Shown one piece after another: positions 5,109-18,814 of a stretch of 33,126 nucleotides of DNA. Every line of letters begins with the position of its first letter. Position 1 is the first letter of the stretch. The stretch is from NCBI GenBank assembly GCA_024699645.1, contig JAILPE010000071.1, positions 1-33,126 of the forward strand. The letters run 5' to 3'. The translations under genes were made by a program, and so were the position numbers. The notes beneath the pieces were generated by a model. The model did not search any database and was not told the DNA's origin. It saw only the letters and a list, made by a program, of their open reading frames with translations. Source of the stretch: Lachnospiraceae bacterium (lineage in GTDB: Bacteria; Bacillota; Clostridia; Lachnospirales; Lachnospiraceae).

Positions 5109-5116
5109 AAAACAAA

Positions 5117-5533
5117 TTTAGCAATACTGTAAGCCGGGTTCTGTCTTGCTCGGTCATCTTTCTTGACTGTCCGTTACCGAACAGCTCCGGCAATCCCTTT
5201 CGTGACTGCCACGCAACCTACCCGGAGACGCGACGGGCAGCCGCATAGTCCCCTGTATGGTCTTGCTTCGGATGGGGTTTGCACAGCACATGGCGTTACC
5301 GTCATGCCGGTGGTCTCTTACACCGCCATTCCACCCTTACTTCAACTTGTGTCCGAAGAACGATTCCGAAAAACCGGTCCTCATAAACGGACATAGTATT
5401 GAAGCGGTATAATTTCTGTTGCACTATCCATGGGGTCACCCCCTCCGGACGTTATCCGGCATCCTGCCCTGTGAAGCCCGGACTTTCCTCACACGCGTAT
5501 GATCCCGCGTGCGCGACCGAACGTACTGCTAAA
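5117..5533 (-). ncRNA. rnpB: RNase P RNA, class A type
   Basis: The catalytic RNA that trims 5' leaders from pre-tRNAs. Hallmarks on the minus strand are GAGGAAAGTCC (5480-5490) followed by GGGCTTCACAGGGCAGGATG, and near the 3' end AGACAGAACCCGGCTTA (5130-5147). The ends were set by the P1 helix: TTTAGCAGTA (5524-5533) pairs with TATTGCTAAA (5117-5126) with one G-U. The GGGCAGG...GCCGGATAACG context is that of class A, as expected for Clostridia, not the Bacillus class B. No clear promoter is visible directly upstream; the two-hairpin repeat abuts the 5' end, and the kinase gene ends 74 bp away, so processing from a longer transcript is possible. Confidence 0.95.
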
Positions 5534-5612
5534 GGCGAATGTGTTTGGTTTTTTCAAACACATCCGAGTTTTGCTCTGAAATGCTTTCGATGGTTCAACG
5601 AAGCATTTCAAA
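5534..5612 (-). repeat. Two-hairpin repeat element, copy 1
   Basis: A 79-nt element 64/79 identical by hand count to copy 2 at 16179-16257. Hairpin A (5577-5610) pairs TGAAATGCTTCG with CGAAAGCATTTCA, with one bulged base. Linker CAAAACTCGG is identical in both. Hairpin B (5539-5563) pairs ATGTGTTTG with CAAACACAT around a 7-nt loop. The element begins within the stop codon region of the kinase gene (TGA is the first three bases of hairpin A) and ends at the rnpB P1 helix. Confidence 0.8.
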
Positions 5613-7272
5613 CCGGGAATACGCTTCCACCCACGAACTCTCTGACTATCGAATTATGGGGGATTTCCTCACTGTTCACTCCTATGAAGTAATCAAGGAA
5701 CTTGAGAAGTCTCTTCGCCTCGAGATACTGAGGATCGTCCTCGCTTATCCCGAAGAGGAGCGGCTCCGCGGACTGCTTGAGAACCGCAAGTTCGTATATG
5801 AGTGCCGAGTTAAACATAACATCGGCCTCTTCCTGGAACGGGAAGATATTTTCTTCTTCTCCGCGACGTACCGAAGGCCACATCGCGATCGTGTCCCGCG
5901 CACATGTGCCACGGGTGCGCGCATCTCTGACCATACGGCGGATCAGTCGGCCGTCCGTGGTGGGGATGCGGTTGTGCTCATCTATGTTAAGCTGTGTGAG
6001 CGCCGAAATATAAATCTTAAATTTGCTGTCCACCGGCAACGAATACGAAAGCGCATCATTAAGTCCGTGGATACCTTCAAGGACAAGGACGTCATCCTTT
6101 TCAAGTCGGAGCATGTTTCCTCTGTACTCGCTGCGGCCGCTCTTGAAATTGAATATCCTCATATCAACCTCTTTGCCGTTCAGGAGATCCGTCATATCCT
6201 TGTTGAACCCTTCAACGTCAATCGCTCCGAGGCATTCGAAATTGTAGCTTCCGTCCTCGTTGAGAGGCGTGTCCTCACGATTTTTAAAATAATTGTCAAG
6301 CGCAATGGGATGCGGCTTGAGGCCGAGCGTACGCAGCTGTATCGACAATCTGTGCGAGAATGTCGTCTTCCCCGATGACGAAGGTCCGGCGATCATGACA
6401 AACTTGGTGTCTTCACGTGCCTTGACCATCTCGGCGATCTTCGCGATGTTATGCTCCTGAGCGGCTTCCTGCACAAGGATCAGATCCGAGATATTACCCT
6501 TTGCGATCGCTTCGTTGAGATCCCCGACCGTCTCGATCCCCTGCATGCGTCCCCATTCGTTGCTCGCCCTGTGGATTGCTGAGAACTTCGGCTGGTCTTT
6601 GAACTTTGGTATCACCGTAGGAGCGCTCTTATCGGGAAGATTGATAATGAAGCCATCACCGTAAAGTGCGAGTTCATAGTATTTAAGTAATCCTGCGGAT
6701 GCGGGCATATATCCGTAGAAATAGTCCGTATAGCCGTCGAGGTCATATACATTGGTGTTCGAAACACGTCTGAACCTGAGAAGCTTCTCTTTGTCCGTCA
6801 TGCCTGCCTGCGCAAACATCTTTCGTGCTTCGCGCGTCTTTATCGAACGCTTTTTGATGGGCATATCTTCTGCGACGATCCTGTCCATCTCTTTCTTAAC
6901 TTCTTTTATATAGTCATCCGTGAGCTTAAAATTCGCATCGAGCGAACAGTAAAGAGCGGATCCGAGTGTGTGCTCGACCGTGATCTTCCTGATCTGTCCG
7001 GCATCAAAAACGCGGGTGAACGCTCTGAGCATAAGAAGGACGATTCCTCGTCTGTATGTAGACATACCGGGTTTCGTCGATGTGGTGACGAATTCGATGC
7101 TGCAATCCTCTTTTACCTTCTTCGAAAGCTCTGTAAGCCTTCCGTCGACGAGCACGAGAATGATATCGCCTTCAACATCCGCCGCAAAGTCAGCCACGAT
7201 ATCGCTGTAGGGTGTTCCCTCGGCGTATTCGAGGACCATTCCTCTCACTTTGATCTTACAATTGTTGTCCAT
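5608..7272 (-). CDS. TGS-domain uridine kinase-like nucleoside kinase
   Basis: A 554-residue protein of the family in which a threonyl-tRNA synthetase-like N-terminus is fused to a uridine kinase/phosphoribulokinase domain. Residues about 4-65 form a TGS-like domain; about 70-200 contain the SAD-like segment TVEHTLGSALYC. The kinase half carries a Walker A motif GPSSSGKT at 296-303, followed by DNYFKNREDTP, and VLVLEGIHGLND as Walker B-like region. The likely activity is phosphorylation of a nucleoside, but the substrate of the fused family is not certain. The family's usual length is close to 550 residues, so it is complete. It follows trmK by 50 bp, in the same direction, and its stop codon is part of the two-hairpin repeat. 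Confidence 0.88.
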   Translation of the reverse strand: MDNNCKIKVRGMVLEYAEGTPYSDIVADFAADVEGDIILVLVDGRLTELSKKVKEDCSIEFVTTSTKPGMSTYRRGIVLLMLRAFTRVFDAGQIRKITVEHTLGSALYCSLDANFKLTDDYIKEVKKEMDRIVAEDMPIKKRSIKTREARKMFAQAGMTDKEKLLRFRRVSNTNVYDLDGYTDYFYGYMPASAGLLKYYELALYGDGFIINLPDKSAPTVIPKFKDQPKFSAIHRASNEWGRMQGIETVGDLNEAIAKGNISDLILVQEAAQEHNIAKIAEMVKAREDTKFVMIAGPSSSGKTTFSHRLSIQLRTLGLKPHPIALDNYFKNREDTPLNEDGSYNFECLGAIDVEGFNKDMTDLLNGKEVDMRIFNFKSGRSEYRGNMLRLEKDDVLVLEGIHGLNDALSYSLPVDSKFKIYISALTQLNIDEHNRIPTTDGRLIRRMVRDARTRGTCARDTIAMWPSVRRGEEENIFPFQEEADVMFNSALIYELAVLKQSAEPLLFGISEDDPQYLEAKRLLKFLDYFIGVNSEEIPHNSIVREFVGGSVFPV

Positions 7273-14898: not shown

Positions 14899-16086
14899 TT
14901 ACTTGTTATATTCCTCGGCAAGTGCCTTGAATGCCGGGAGAGATCTCTCGATCATGGCGTAATCAACACAGTACGCGATCCTCACGAATCCCGGGCAGCC
15001 GAATGTCGATCCCGGAACGATAAGGAGCCTGTGAGCCTTTGCCTTTGCGACGAAAGCCTTATCATCGGGTTCAAGGGCCTTAACAAAGAGGTAGAAGGCA
15101 CCCTGAGGCATAATGCACTCATAGCCGTATTCTTTGAGCTTCTCGTAAAGGAGCTTTCTGTTGCGGTCATATATGCCTACATCGACTCTCTCGTTCAGGC
15201 ACTTGGCAACCGCAAGCTGCGCAACTGAAGGTGAATTGACAAACCCGAGTATTCTCGTTGCCACACCCGCTGCGGCAAATATCTCATCATGGCCGTCGGC
15301 TTCTTTGGGGATAACAAGGTATCCGATCCTGTCGCCGGGAAGCGAAAGGGATTTGCTGTAAGAATATCCGACGATCGTATTGCGATAGAACGTCGTAACG
15401 AAAGGAACCTCGGCTCCGTCATAAACAAGCTCTCTGTAAGGCTCGTCCGAAAGCAGATAAATGCTCGTGCCGAACTTTCTCTGTGCTTCCTCGAGGACAA
15501 GTCCGAGCTTCGTAAGCGTCTCTGCCGAATAAACAACACCGGTGGGGTTGTTGGGAGAATTTACGATAACGATCTTTGTACGTGCCGTAAGCTTCTCCTC
15601 AAGTGCCTTAAGATCGGGTTGGAATGTCGAAGTGTCGGGAGCGATCTCCACAAGAACGCCGTCGAAGTTCGACACATAGTTTTTGTACTCTCCGAAGTAA
15701 GGAGCAAATACAACAACTTCATCGCCCGGATCGAGCAGGGTCTTCATGATAACGTTCATACCGCCCGCTGCGCCCACGGTCATAACAATGTCATTCTTGT
15801 CAAAAGCAACGGGATAACGTGCATTAAGATCCTTTGCGATCGCCCCGCGCACCTCGTCAAATCCCTGATTGAGCATATAGCCGTGAACGTAGTTCTTGTC
15901 GGGATTTTCCGCTACTTCTCTGTATGCGCGGCTAACAGCTTCCGGAGCCGAAACGCTCGGATTTCCGAGGCTGTAGTCATATACATTCTCTTTTCCGAAT
16001 TCAAGTGCCATCTTGCGGCCTTCCTCAAACATCGCACGGATGGCCGAGCTGTTCTTCACAAGATTCGACATTTTTTTGGATATCAT
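14899..16086 (-). CDS. Class I aspartate-type aminotransferase
   Basis: A 395-residue fold-type I PLP enzyme. Substrate loop YSLGNPSVSAPE, glycine-rich VGAAGGMNV, NSPNNPTG (about 175-183), DEPYRE and the PLP Lys K245 in YSYSKSLSLPGDRIGY are all visible. Members of this family in anaerobic Firmicutes are usually annotated as aspartate or general pyridoxal-phosphate aminotransferases; the exact substrate cannot be told from sequence. ATG 16086 has AGGAAG 8 nt upstream. It precedes hisC by 39 bp. Between it and the lysC stop are 174 bp that hold copy 2 of the two-hairpin repeat. An aspartate product would feed lysC. Confidence 0.9.
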   Translation of the reverse strand: MISKKMSNLVKNSSAIRAMFEEGRKMALEFGKENVYDYSLGNPSVSAPEAVSRAYREVAENPDKNYVHGYMLNQGFDEVRGAIAKDLNARYPVAFDKNDIVMTVGAAGGMNVIMKTLLDPGDEVVVFAPYFGEYKNYVSNFDGVLVEIAPDTSTFQPDLKALEEKLTARTKIVIVNSPNNPTGVVYSAETLTKLGLVLEEAQRKFGTSIYLLSDEPYRELVYDGAEVPFVTTFYRNTIVGYSYSKSLSLPGDRIGYLVIPKEADGHDEIFAAAGVATRILGFVNSPSVAQLAVAKCLNERVDVGIYDRNRKLLYEKLKEYGYECIMPQGAFYLFVKALEPDDKAFVAKAKAHRLLIVPGSTFGCPGFVRIAYCVDYAMIERSLPAFKALAEEYNK

Positions 16087-16178
16087 TATGATGCTTCCTT
16101 TCGTGAAATATATAAAAACTGCTTCTTAACCGCTCGATAATACCTCGCAGTTACGCCGACTGCTTTCGCTGCCTCGTT

Positions 16179-16257
16179 TTCGAAATGCTTCGTTAAACCA
16201 CCGAAAGCATTTCGGAACAAAACTCGGACGAACTTGAAAATACCAAGTTCGTTCGGC
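16179..16257 (+). repeat. Two-hairpin repeat element, copy 2
   Basis: A 79-nt relative of the element at 5534-5612, without gaps. Hairpin A is 16181-16214 (CGAAATGCTTCG with CGAAAGCATTTCG); hairpin B is 16228-16252 (ACGAACTTG with CAAGTTCGT, 7-nt loop). Of 15 differences from copy 1, ten fall in five base pairs that stay paired in both copies. This copy lies 3 bp beyond the lysC stop and in the orientation opposite to the local genes, whereas copy 1 runs with them. Confidence 0.8.
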
Positions 16258-16260
16258 TCC

Positions 16261-17466
16261 TTATCCTATAAATTTAGCATGTATAGCGTTCATGGCGCCG
16301 TCTGCGTATGCCGAATCGATAAGAACAGAGATCTTGATCTCTGATGTGGAGATCATCTTGATATTGATGCCTGCATCGTAAAGTGCTTCAAACATCTTTG
16401 CAGCAACGCCTGCGTTTGAGGTCATGCCGGCTCCGACAACCGAAACCTTAGCGATATTACGCTCAACGTCGATCTTCTCGCAGATAAGACTTGTCTGTCT
16501 GTGGTTCTCCATAACGGCGAGTGCATCGTCAACGGCATCACCGGCAACGGTAAAGCTGATATCCTTTGTGCCGTCACGTCCGATCGACTGCAGGATAACG
16601 TCAACGTTTATGTTATGATTTGCGAGGTGATTGAATAATTTAAATGCCACACCGGGCTGATCCTGAAGTCCGATAACCGCAATTCTCGCTGTATTCTTGT
16701 CGCAAGCAACACCGCTCACAAGCATCTTTTCCATTTTTATATCCTCCTTGACAACTGTGCCTTCATTATTATTCAAACTTGATCTTACAACAAGCTCCAC
16801 GCCGTATTTCTTTGCCATTTCTACCGAACGGTTATGAAGCACTCCCGCACCGAGCGATGCGAGTTCGAGCATCTCATCGTATGAGATCTCATCGAGCTTA
16901 CGTGCATTTTTAACGATCCTCGGATCGGCTGTATATACGCCGTCAACATCCGTAAATATCTCGCATCTGTCTGCCTTAAGCGCTGCCGCAAGTGCTACTG
17001 CCGTTGTATCGGAACCGCCTCGGCCGAGTGTTGTTACGTTTTCTGCCTTATCAACGCCCTGGAATCCCGTAACTATAACGATCTTCCTTGCTTCGAGCTC
17101 GGCTCTGATCCTCTCGGTGTCGATAGACGTAAGTCTTGCATTCGTATAAGCCTGCGTTGTGTGCATAGCTACCTGAAATGCATTGAGTGAAACTGCCGAA
17201 ACGCCCTTTGCGGCCATGGCCATAGCCATTAACGAAACAGATATCTGTTCTCCAACGCTTACGAGCATGTCAAGCTCTCTCTTGGGAGGATTGGGATTAA
17301 TGTCCTTTGCCTTCGCTATAAGCTCGTCGGTCGACTTTCCCATCGCCGAAAGTACTACGATAACGTCGTTTCCCTCTTTGTAGTCGGCTATGCACCTGTC
17401 GGCCACGTTATTGATCCTTTGTTTGTCTGCTACGGAGGTGCCTCCGAATTTCTTAACTATCAGCAT
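16261..17466 (-). CDS. lysC: Aspartate kinase
   Basis: Phosphorylates aspartate, the first step towards lysine, threonine and methionine. At 401 residues it matches monofunctional class II aspartokinases. KKFGGTSV lies at residues 5-12, VVLSAMGKSTDELI follows, then TTLGRGGSDTTAVALAAAL and FTDVDGVYTADPR. Two C-terminal ACT domains (from about 265 on) indicate feedback inhibition by an amino acid end product. The start ATG 17466 fits the family; an AAGGAG lies 11 nt before it. In-frame ATGs at 17487 and 17571 would add a basic tail not typical of the family. It is the last gene of the ACT-hom-apgM-lysC block. Confidence 0.94.
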   Translation of the reverse strand: MLIVKKFGGTSVADKQRINNVADRCIADYKEGNDVIVVLSAMGKSTDELIAKAKDINPNPPKRELDMLVSVGEQISVSLMAMAMAAKGVSAVSLNAFQVAMHTTQAYTNARLTSIDTERIRAELEARKIVIVTGFQGVDKAENVTTLGRGGSDTTAVALAAALKADRCEIFTDVDGVYTADPRIVKNARKLDEISYDEMLELASLGAGVLHNRSVEMAKKYGVELVVRSSLNNNEGTVVKEDIKMEKMLVSGVACDKNTARIAVIGLQDQPGVAFKLFNHLANHNINVDVILQSIGRDGTKDISFTVAGDAVDDALAVMENHRQTSLICEKIDVERNIAKVSVVGAGMTSNAGVAAKMFEALYDAGINIKMISTSEIKISVLIDSAYADGAMNAIHAKFIG

Positions 17467-17560
17467 CTTCTGCTGTTCTCCTTTCATAGTACCGTTCGTG
17501 CTCCGTTTTGCGCGGTCCGCTTCCTTTCGGGCCGCGTTCGCATATGCGCGTGTGGTATCC

Positions 17561-18814
17561 TTATTTCTCAAATAATCTGTCTATCAGCTTGTAGCCTTCG
17601 GGAACAAAGAGTCCGGCTGCCTTCGCTGTTTTTTCGTTATATGCGGCATCGCCCTTGGCGGGTTCGGTGCTGTCATACAACATAAACGGCACGGGATCGA
17701 TCGTGTGCGTCCTGCACCATATAGGCGTGGGATGGTCGGGTAATACCATCATTCTGTAAGGAACTCCCCACGCGTCCATCTCATCCTTGATGATCTTTAT
17801 AACACGTCTGTCGAGGTATTCGATAGCCTTGATCTTGCGCTCAATGCTTCCCTGATGGCCCATTTCATCGGGCGCCTCAACGTGAACATAAGCGAAATCG
17901 TAGCCTTCCTTGAGAAGTCTGACCGCAGCCTGTGCCTTTCCCTCGTAGTTCGTTTCGAGAGTTCCGTCGGCGCCGGGGACGATCTCAACGTGCATGCCCG
18001 TTCCGATCGCGATACCCTTCAGAAGGTCTACTGCCGAGATCATGGCGCCCTTCTTTCCCGTCTTCTCTTCAAAAGACATGAGCGAAGGCTTTGTTCCGGC
18101 TCCCCACATCCACATGCTGTTCGCTTTGTGAAGGCCCTTCTTTGCTCTTTCAACGTTTATGGGATGATTGTTGAGCACTTCATAGCTCTTCTCCATCATT
18201 TCGCGGAAAAGCGCATTTTCGGGAAGGTATTCTCCGATCACTCTTCCCGGAATGTCATGGGGCTGGGTAAGAGGCAGAACCTCTCCTCCTTCCCATATAA
18301 GGCAATGTCTGTAGCTTGTTCCCGTATACAGAGAAAAAGGAGGCTTGATCACTCCCGCATCCTTCAGCGCTTTAACAAGCACGTCCGCATCCTCAGTCGA
18401 GATCTCGCTCGAGCTGTGATCTATGATCGTTCTCTTTTCGTAAGGAATGCCCTCCTCGTCGGTAAGTGTGACAATGTTGCATCTTATGGCTATATCGCCG
18501 TCTTTCATGGGAACGCCTATGCTGAGAGCCTCAAGAGGCGATCTTCCCGTGTAATATTTTCTCGGATAGTAACCGAGCACCGCAAGATTGGCAGTATCAC
18601 TGCCGGGCTTCATTCCCTCGGGAATGTTTGCCGCAAGTCCAAGCTCCGATGTTTTTGCGAGTTCATCCATCGTGGGCGTAACTGCGGCCTCAAGGGGAGT
18701 AGCTCCCTTAAGCTGTTCAAGCGGTTCGTCCGCCATGCCGTCTCCGAGTACGATGATATATTTCATCTTACCCGCATTTTCCTTCTGTGCATCGGCGTTT
18801 GCATTAGCATTCAT
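17561..18814 (-). CDS. ApgM-like phosphoglycerate mutase, probable homoserine kinase analogue
   Basis: A 417-residue member of the archaeal-type cofactor-independent phosphoglycerate mutase family (alkaline phosphatase superfamily). Metal-binding GDGMAD lies at 24-29, the catalytic Ser at 72 (GSDTAN), with HVEAPDEMGHQG and LPDHPTP later. The gene lies between hom and lysC, and no GHMP-type homoserine kinase (thrB) is in the window. In comparative genomics such hom/thrC-linked apgM-like genes are annotated as predicted functional analogues of homoserine kinase; by that reasoning this protein would make O-phosphohomoserine for ThrC. The start at 18814 has a near-perfect SD (AGGAGGT, 6 nt), so a 16-residue Asn/Ala-rich tail before MKYIIVLGDG is probably translated. 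A true glycolytic mutase role cannot be excluded. Confidence 0.85.
   Translation of the reverse strand: MNANANADAQKENAGKMKYIIVLGDGMADEPLEQLKGATPLEAAVTPTMDELAKTSELGLAANIPEGMKPGSDTANLAVLGYYPRKYYTGRSPLEALSIGVPMKDGDIAIRCNIVTLTDEEGIPYEKRTIIDHSSSEISTEDADVLVKALKDAGVIKPPFSLYTGTSYRHCLIWEGGEVLPLTQPHDIPGRVIGEYLPENALFREMMEKSYEVLNNHPINVERAKKGLHKANSMWMWGAGTKPSLMSFEEKTGKKGAMISAVDLLKGIAIGTGMHVEIVPGADGTLETNYEGKAQAAVRLLKEGYDFAYVHVEAPDEMGHQGSIERKIKAIEYLDRRVIKIIKDEMDAWGVPYRMMVLPDHPTPIWCRTHTIDPVPFMLYDSTEPAKGDAAYNEKTAKAAGLFVPEGYKLIDRLFEK

Follow-up and report, generated by a model that had tools for sequence, protein, structure and literature searches.

Two similar stretches of 79 nt lie in a Lachnospiraceae contig, one beside the RNase P RNA gene rnpB and the other beside a gene that we take to be lysC. 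What is this element, and was its fold selected as RNA or as DNA? The window, that is, the whole stretch of DNA analysed, has a length of 33,126 nt. The first-pass annotation had described a two-hairpin, 79-nt element with a selected fold, as opposed to a decaying repeat, and had named the existence of further copies and the pairing of their stems as the check. The underlying alignment was reproduced: copies 1 and 2 were identical at 64 of 79 positions without gaps (BLAST E = 3.2e-16), and 10 of the 15 differences made up five pairs, four in hairpin B and one at the base of hairpin A, that were Watson-Crick in both copies. Both strands of both copies folded better than dinucleotide shuffles (z -4.4 to -7.4). 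Further copies were found in the genome and in its relatives, their stems pair with massive covariation, and the claim of a selected fold was thereby borne out. The 79-nt unit itself was rejected as the whole element; the flanks of the matches hold further structure, and the 79 nt represent two of five helical parts. The earlier interpretation as a whole is therefore partly supported.

Architecture of the element

The complete element is about 135 nt long (~129-142 nt) and lies on the strand opposite to that of the earlier reading. It consists, in order, of closing stem O, arm B, the long arm A, mini-hairpin D, the O3' strand and a separate hairpin C. Modelling showed a predicted fold in which O, B, A and D form a four-way cloverleaf that is followed by hairpin C (Table 1). 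When seven sequences were folded individually, O, B, A and C were formed in all seven and D in six. Most of 37 matched stretches likewise formed O, B, A, C and D; the exceptions include L050, L057, L058, L069, L049, L066 and window copy 1, and for L049 and L066 the start of the stretch had been set inside a long arm B.

Table 1. Coordinates of the element copies, their parts and the neighbouring genes in the window
Feature	Position	Strand	Remarks
rnpB (class A RNase P RNA)	5114..5532	-	Head to head with copy 1; Rfam RF00010, 280.6 bits
Copy 1, relic	5534..5612	+	Retains O5' and arms B and A; lacks D, C and the outer 3' strand of A
ORF, presumably a kinase (label of the first-pass annotation)	5608..7272	-	Overlaps arm A of copy 1 with its stop codon
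Next ORF of the operon	14899-16086	-	Copy 2 lies between lysC and this ORF
Copy 2, complete (O, B, A, D, C)	16126..16257	-	132 nt
Hairpin C	16127..16153	-	Loop GAGGTATTATCGA; helix 6 of A5, 95.9% of cells paired
O3' strand TCGGC, closing stem	16155..16159	-	
Mini-hairpin D, GCGAAAGC	16160..16171	-	Loop in copy 2 is GNNA
Arm A	16172..16227	-	Outer stem CCGAG/CGAGG, tandem G.A, 4-nt bulge GTTC, inner stem, apical loop; helices 3 and 4 of A5; bulge and G.A read by eye
Arm B	16228..16252	-	Loop region GGTATTTTC; helix 2 of A5, 94.5% of cells paired
O5' strand GCCGA, closing stem	16253..16257	-	Pairs with 16155-16159; helix 1 of A5
ORF, presumably lysC (aspartate kinase; label of the first-pass annotation)	16261..17571	-	Ends 3 nt before copy 2

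Copy 2 matched the full-element model R2 with 119.4 bits over all 134 model positions, being itself one of the seven sequences used to build that model. Its own fold reached -52.1 kcal/mol as RNA and -29.6 as DNA (z -4.2). This copy does end 3 nt from the lysC stop codon, as had been claimed, but the opposite orientation ascribed to it did not hold; on the modelled strand, the whole element runs in the same direction as lysC. Similarly, the sequence CAAAACTCGG is nearly fixed but was misread as a linker, since it forms one side of hairpin A's outer stem. Copy 1 lies between the presumed kinase gene and rnpB and contains the kinase stop codon, as first reported, but it is a truncated relic rather than an entire element. 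It scored 56.8 bits with R2, and its 3' half does not fold as D and C. At the same site beside rnpB, G011 and G012 carry the complete element (L007 and L035).

Several features recur across the copies when these are compared by eye. The outer stem of arm A is often CCGAG/CGAGG with the tandem G.A, a 4-nt bulge is usual and often reads GNNC, and the apical loop ends in YCAA. The loop of hairpin C is GAGGTNTTNTCGA or near to it, often with TWCC next. In the window's own genome, this loop pattern had 8 matches, and it was carried on a stem only in the 2 inside elements. Two lysC-linked copies of G011 (L056:1321-1511 and L023:1394-1584) share the same insert of ~62 nt nested in the loop of arm A; this insert comprises two hairpins, of which the second has an A-like loop, TATGCTTCAAA. 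In L053 and L040, the element is directly followed by short repeated pieces of hairpin C's 3' part and tail (GAGCAAGACTTCCTTGT and similar).

Covariation, distribution and placement

The element was searched for with three covariance models. R1, made from the two window copies and run at E up to 0.1, gave matches in 10 of the 24 genomes of this genus of gut-type bacteria; a few of these matches are probably not the element (e.g., L021, L032 and L033). R2, built from seven sequences, had matches in 11 of the 24 genomes at E up to 0.01, and R3, built from 34 matches, had matches in 11 at E up to 0.001, with 1 to 10 per carrier. Since R2 and R3 scored 140 of the 292-1320 first-look candidates per genome of the genus, and 8 per genome in the wide searches, these counts are minimum numbers, and the test for absence elsewhere is a weak one.

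In alignment A5 (34 rows), 91.2% of the cells were paired, and both sides changed in 45 of the 50 pairs. The covariation score was 0.672, compared with 0.205 for shuffles and at most 0.119 when the partners were slid. An alignment of 46 rows, 38 of them distinct, gave 90.7%, 46 of 50 pairs and a score of 0.587 versus 0.173. All six pairs of stem O (helix 1 of A5) showed double changes. Alignments A4 and A5 were fitted to the model and lean toward it. Yet the O, D and C pairs, which are absent from R1, are formed and covary in the sequences that R1 found, and the sequences fold alike singly.

Outside the genus, the element was not convincingly found in the wider, less sensitive searches, in which 8 candidates per genome were scored. 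At the level of the family, R2 gave matches in 2 of 397 genomes, both of the genus. At the level of the order, R3 gave matches in 3 of 392, namely, the element's own genome and two weak ones, G736 (same family) and G480 (same order). A pattern scan of GTDB contigs yielded 17 hits, of which 12 were confirmed by R2; these were in four MAG assemblies labelled Lachnospiraceae or Clostridia (G009, G005, G020 and G021), two of them labelled rumen. The other five (two Streptomyces and three others) were unconfirmed by R2 at E up to 0.1. A blastn search with copy 2 against phage and plasmid collections found nothing; on viral contigs, the pattern had one hit, unconfirmed by R2, and a second pattern had none. 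The element was not recognised in the literature searched, as judged by titles and the openings of abstracts, and may be in print elsewhere. In G736, which belongs to another genus of the same family, two-hairpin repeats with GAGGTNTTTTCGA loops were observed at L214:1590-1690 and L216:1346-1537. They share the loop of hairpin C, and those in L216 are in tandem with a 91-bp period. The L216 repeats lie downstream of what we take to be an nrdR-like gene, and the L214 repeats downstream of another gene. A plasmid search with the G736 repeat led no further.

The placement of the element was then tabulated for the 34 rows of A5, after the element start had been moved by hand in three rows with a long arm B (L049 and two of L066). 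In 31 rows, the 5' end coincided with a gene boundary or a tRNA 3' fragment. For twelve rows, the start overlapped a protein gene's stop codon or lay within 8 nt of it; nine started within 6 nt of a tRNA 3' end, three directly after a 3'-end fragment of tRNA-Leu (L041, L042 and L043) and two just after rnpB. Three were head to head with the 5' end of rnpB and two with that of a tRNA, and one was the second unit of a tandem. No gene was recognised on the 5' side in the remaining two, L051 and L052. Altogether, 26 of the 34 rows had a gene, rnpB, a tRNA or a tRNA 3' fragment upstream of them in the same orientation. Except for rnpB and the tRNAs, the gene names used here (groEL, purH, secG, nrdR, etc.) are our presumptive assignments from the sequence.

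The occupancy of these sites was polymorphic, with the element present in one species and absent from its sisters. Of 27 orthologous stretches compared from relatives (L203 not among them), 24 were without the element, two had part of it and one had it complete. At the lysC site, it was found in the window's own genome and on both G011 contigs and was absent in G023. At a groEL-like gene of G009, a spacer present in two relatives was replaced. Tandem, nested and partial copies occur, the partial forms comprising a solo hairpin C (L184), O-B-C (L188), O-D-C (L065) and B alone at rnpB (L110 and L114).

Three further observations were made around these sites. In L048, L041, L042 and L043, the 3' part of tRNA-Leu, starting at the T loop, is repeated as a copy of ~20 nt next to the element; such repeats may be att-like duplications, a partial second tRNA or sequence carried along by the element. 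In the window's own genome (G000:C35:17383-17739; L064 and L058), one full and several shortened copies follow tRNA-Leu (aag) in tandem, mixed with another hairpin module, ACTTGAAGGCCACCTTCGGCGGCCCG, that is also found near tRNA-Leu in relatives. Finally, in L051, L052, L029 and L034, from four genomes, a conserved stretch of ~150 nt with strong hairpins lies 5' of the element. That side of the element has no recognised ORF, and the stretch is possibly an unannotated RNA.

The history of the copies was examined by identity in 32 of the 34 rows, two partial rows being left out. Copies at the same locus in different species were 92% identical (8 pairs). Copies at other loci were 59% identical within a genome and 55% between genomes, an excess that was reached in 4 of 2,000 shuffles and that came chiefly from arm A. 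Recent jumping is thus not visible, because other-locus copies differ as 59% from 55% whereas same-locus copies share 92%. In one orthologous pair, L062 and L068, the element was identical at 139 of 139 positions, compared with 247 of 300 in the coding sequence upstream. The modularity of the element was assessed by correlating identities over 25 of the 34 rows, one per orthologous locus. Hairpin C showed no significant correlation with arm A or B (r = 0.10 and 0.07), and its correlation with O (r = 0.19) was reached in 89 of 2,000 permutations. O, A and B intercorrelated weakly (0.19-0.33), and the two strands within an arm did so strongly (0.51-0.91). Therefore, the copies seem to be old and under constraint where they sit, and hairpin C may have its own, separate history. 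Differences in occupancy between species could come from loss, from exchange with unsampled species or from stems renewed at insertion.

Folded DNA or folded RNA

The base-pair spectrum was used on the premise that stems selected as RNA would tolerate G.U but not A.C. At 41 of the 50 pairs, a set of variable pairs chosen after the fuller counts were known, the element had 31 G.U and 22 A.C (difference, p 0.27). For rnpB in the same genomes, the numbers were 62 and 5 (Fisher p 1.4e-5 versus the element), counted over 18 of 25 loci, with five left out as incomplete or without an anchor and two without a 3' anchor. The acceptor stems of 19 tRNAs had 16 and 1 (p 0.007). A set of 70 terminator-like stems, taken by a symmetric rule and some possibly derived from elements, had 29 G.T and 9 A.C, which was not significantly different from the element (p 0.12). 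The 41-pair count omits the G.T that is conserved at hairpin C's tip (25 cells), a position in D (10 cells) where the alignment reads one base out of register, and poorly paired pairs. When both omitted positions were included, the counts became 66 G.U and 20 A.C. This ratio was still distinct from that of rnpB (p 0.009), but it did not differ significantly from those of tRNA (p 0.18) and terminator-like stems (p 1.0). All 50 pairs together gave 72 and 36. By these comparisons, the pair spectrum distinguishes the element from rnpB and, with less certainty, from tRNA, but it fails to separate it from terminators.

The loops and the flanking genes were considered as well. The D loop was C(GNA)G in 23 of the 34 rows, with a G-C pair outside it in 20 of these 23. 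According to PMC4686876, DNA mini-hairpins of exceptional stability are formed by GNA and GNNA loops that have two or more G-C pairs. For comparison, passages of PMC2864571 deal with STAXI and the L17 downstream element, which are also intergenic covarying motifs; single-stranded DNA was considered for STAXI, with UUCG loops taken as favouring RNA, and the L17 element lies downstream of genes, its strand being chosen from G-U pairs and GNRA loops. Unlike these motifs, the present element has few G.U combinations at its variable pairs, and its D loops are mostly the DNA-favoured GNA. In five copies (window copy 1, L007, L035, the minus-strand copy of L055, and L061), all but one of them complete, the genes on both sides are oriented against the modelled strand. 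With DNA parameters, three elements gave z scores of -4.2 to -10.6 for the modelled strand and -3.4 to -10.1 for the complement. The complement folds almost as well, and therefore energy alone hardly discriminates between the strands. The first-pass annotation had left the choice between RNA and DNA open; the present evidence leans toward DNA, and we consider it fairly probable that the element was selected as folded DNA rather than RNA.

A structured RNA at transcript 3' ends, either a 3' untranslated region or a trailer of tRNA and rnpB precursors that protects the transcript or takes part in its processing, is a somewhat unlikely alternative. The 26 rows in sense after a stop codon, tRNA, tRNA 3' fragment or rnpB would fit such an RNA, as would the strong RNA folding energies, the excess of G.U over A.C in the fuller counts, and arm B of L049 and both L066 copies, which resembles a terminator hairpin with a T-run. 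However, the 41-pair spectrum unlike that of rnpB and tRNA, the five copies opposed by both flanking genes and the absence of the element from 24 of the 27 orthologous stretches all argue against it. Furthermore, RNase P was the only Rfam family at or above its gathering score in the window, and a low-threshold Rfam scan (E up to 1) of seven relatives' loci returned rnpB, three tRNAs and matches below gathering scores only.

A possible mechanism and its significance

The reading that we prefer, with a probability of roughly 0.5, is that of a modular interspersed repeat, specific to this lineage, on which selection acts as a folded single strand of DNA. The strand would fold when the duplex is opened during replication, transcription or transfer. 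A putative recombinase or transposase would recognise the folded strand and join the element at gene ends. The copies would then persist vertically as long as the fold stays under selection and would decay by the loss of whole arms. A bolder version, which we hold to be unlikely, is a new class of DNA-level cloverleaf, a single-stranded site of exchangeable arm modules that is joined by a recombinase precisely at gene ends. Such a recombinase would read the loops and the shape, not the sequence of the stems, so that new copies could bring their own stems. Concerning the enzyme, a Y1 transposase (Pfam Y1_Tnp) was not found in 7 of the 11 carriers, including G009 and G017, which are 99% complete; it was present in the other 4 carriers and in 8 of the 13 non-carriers. 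Its absence is not absolute because the genomes are drafts. No target-site duplication was seen by eye. A 4-bp CTAR target duplication is the rule for the IS5-like family. It was considered and set aside here; the 5' ends are often CTAR, and the 3' ends are inconsistent.

It is quite improbable that the palindromes are kept by mutation alone, through template switching at replication that copies one arm into the other. The rarity of both G.T and A.C at the variable pairs would agree with this, as would the comparison of L056 with L023, in which 8 double Watson-Crick changes exceeded 6 single ones (2 to G.T, 1 to A.C and 3 other). In the other copy pairs compared, however, single changes were about as many as double ones. 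Arm copying also leaves the conserved loops, the bulge, the tandem G.A and the start of the element unexplained, and closing stem O pairs across the other arms. Moreover, the 139 identical positions of the L062-L068 pair stand against the 247 of 300 in the coding sequence upstream.

Integron attC sites keep their structure rather than their sequence, contain bulged bases and are positioned right after stop codons. The element likewise abuts stop codons, keeps its structure and not its stem sequences, occurs in tandem copies and has strand-specific non-canonical features (GNA loops, the tandem G.A and the 4-nt bulge). An attC-like folded-strand site at which a putative tyrosine or other recombinase joins gene-sized pieces is nevertheless slightly less probable still than template switching. 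The element is multi-branched, unlike the single hairpin of attC, and attC end boxes were not seen in it by eye. Its neighbours include tRNAs, rnpB and protein genes that we presume to be housekeeping genes, not evident cassettes. The general likeness is that attC sites are folded DNA hairpins read by a recombinase, as described in PMC3053210 and PMC11641012.

Ordinary intrinsic terminators in a complicated guise are the least credible explanation: the terminator-like arm B with a T-run in L049 and both L066 copies, the T5 run of the B-only form at rnpB of G005 and a pair spectrum not significantly different from that of terminator-like stems speak for them. On the other side, arm B lacks a following T-run in most of the 37 folded copies (by eye), each lysC copy has an ORF on either side of it, both on one strand, a terminator-like hairpin that G009 also has is kept downstream of the element in L060, and neither a four-way fold nor conserved loops are needed for termination. 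L045, L059 and the G005 site at rnpB raise the possibility that arm B is a copy of the local terminator. Against this, the loci resemble one another at the start of O and at the base of arm B (mostly TG...CA), and the B-only sites can be explained by deletion.

In style, the preferred folded-DNA repeat resembles REP, BIME and REPIN sequences as well as attC, and we file it under neither. According to PMC3116915, REPINs are small, non-coding, interspersed extragenic palindromic repeats that occur as singles and in tandem and whose folding is predicted as single-stranded DNA or mRNA. The present element differs from them in that its stem sequences vary widely among copies and in its form, a cloverleaf plus hairpin of ~135 nt. 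Instead of the high copy number and conserved stems of REP and REPIN families, there were at most 10 matches per genome, as a lower bound, and an average identity of 59% between copies at different loci of one genome; in 7 of the 11 carriers, no Y1 transposase of the IS200/IS605 type (RAYT), which goes with those families, was found.

If the element is RNA after all, it represents a 3'-end RNA family without an entry in the Rfam copy used. As for DNA, we know of few natural elements, beyond attC sites and the ends of single-stranded transposons, for which covariation indicates selection on folded DNA. In this element, changes on both sides were seen at 45 of 50 pairs as the loops stayed similar, and the spectrum at the variable pairs separates from those of rnpB and tRNA. 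It sits precisely where tRNA, rnpB and protein genes end. Given this placement at gene ends and the species-specific occupancy, the protein that reads the element could therefore reveal a new system of DNA rearrangement.
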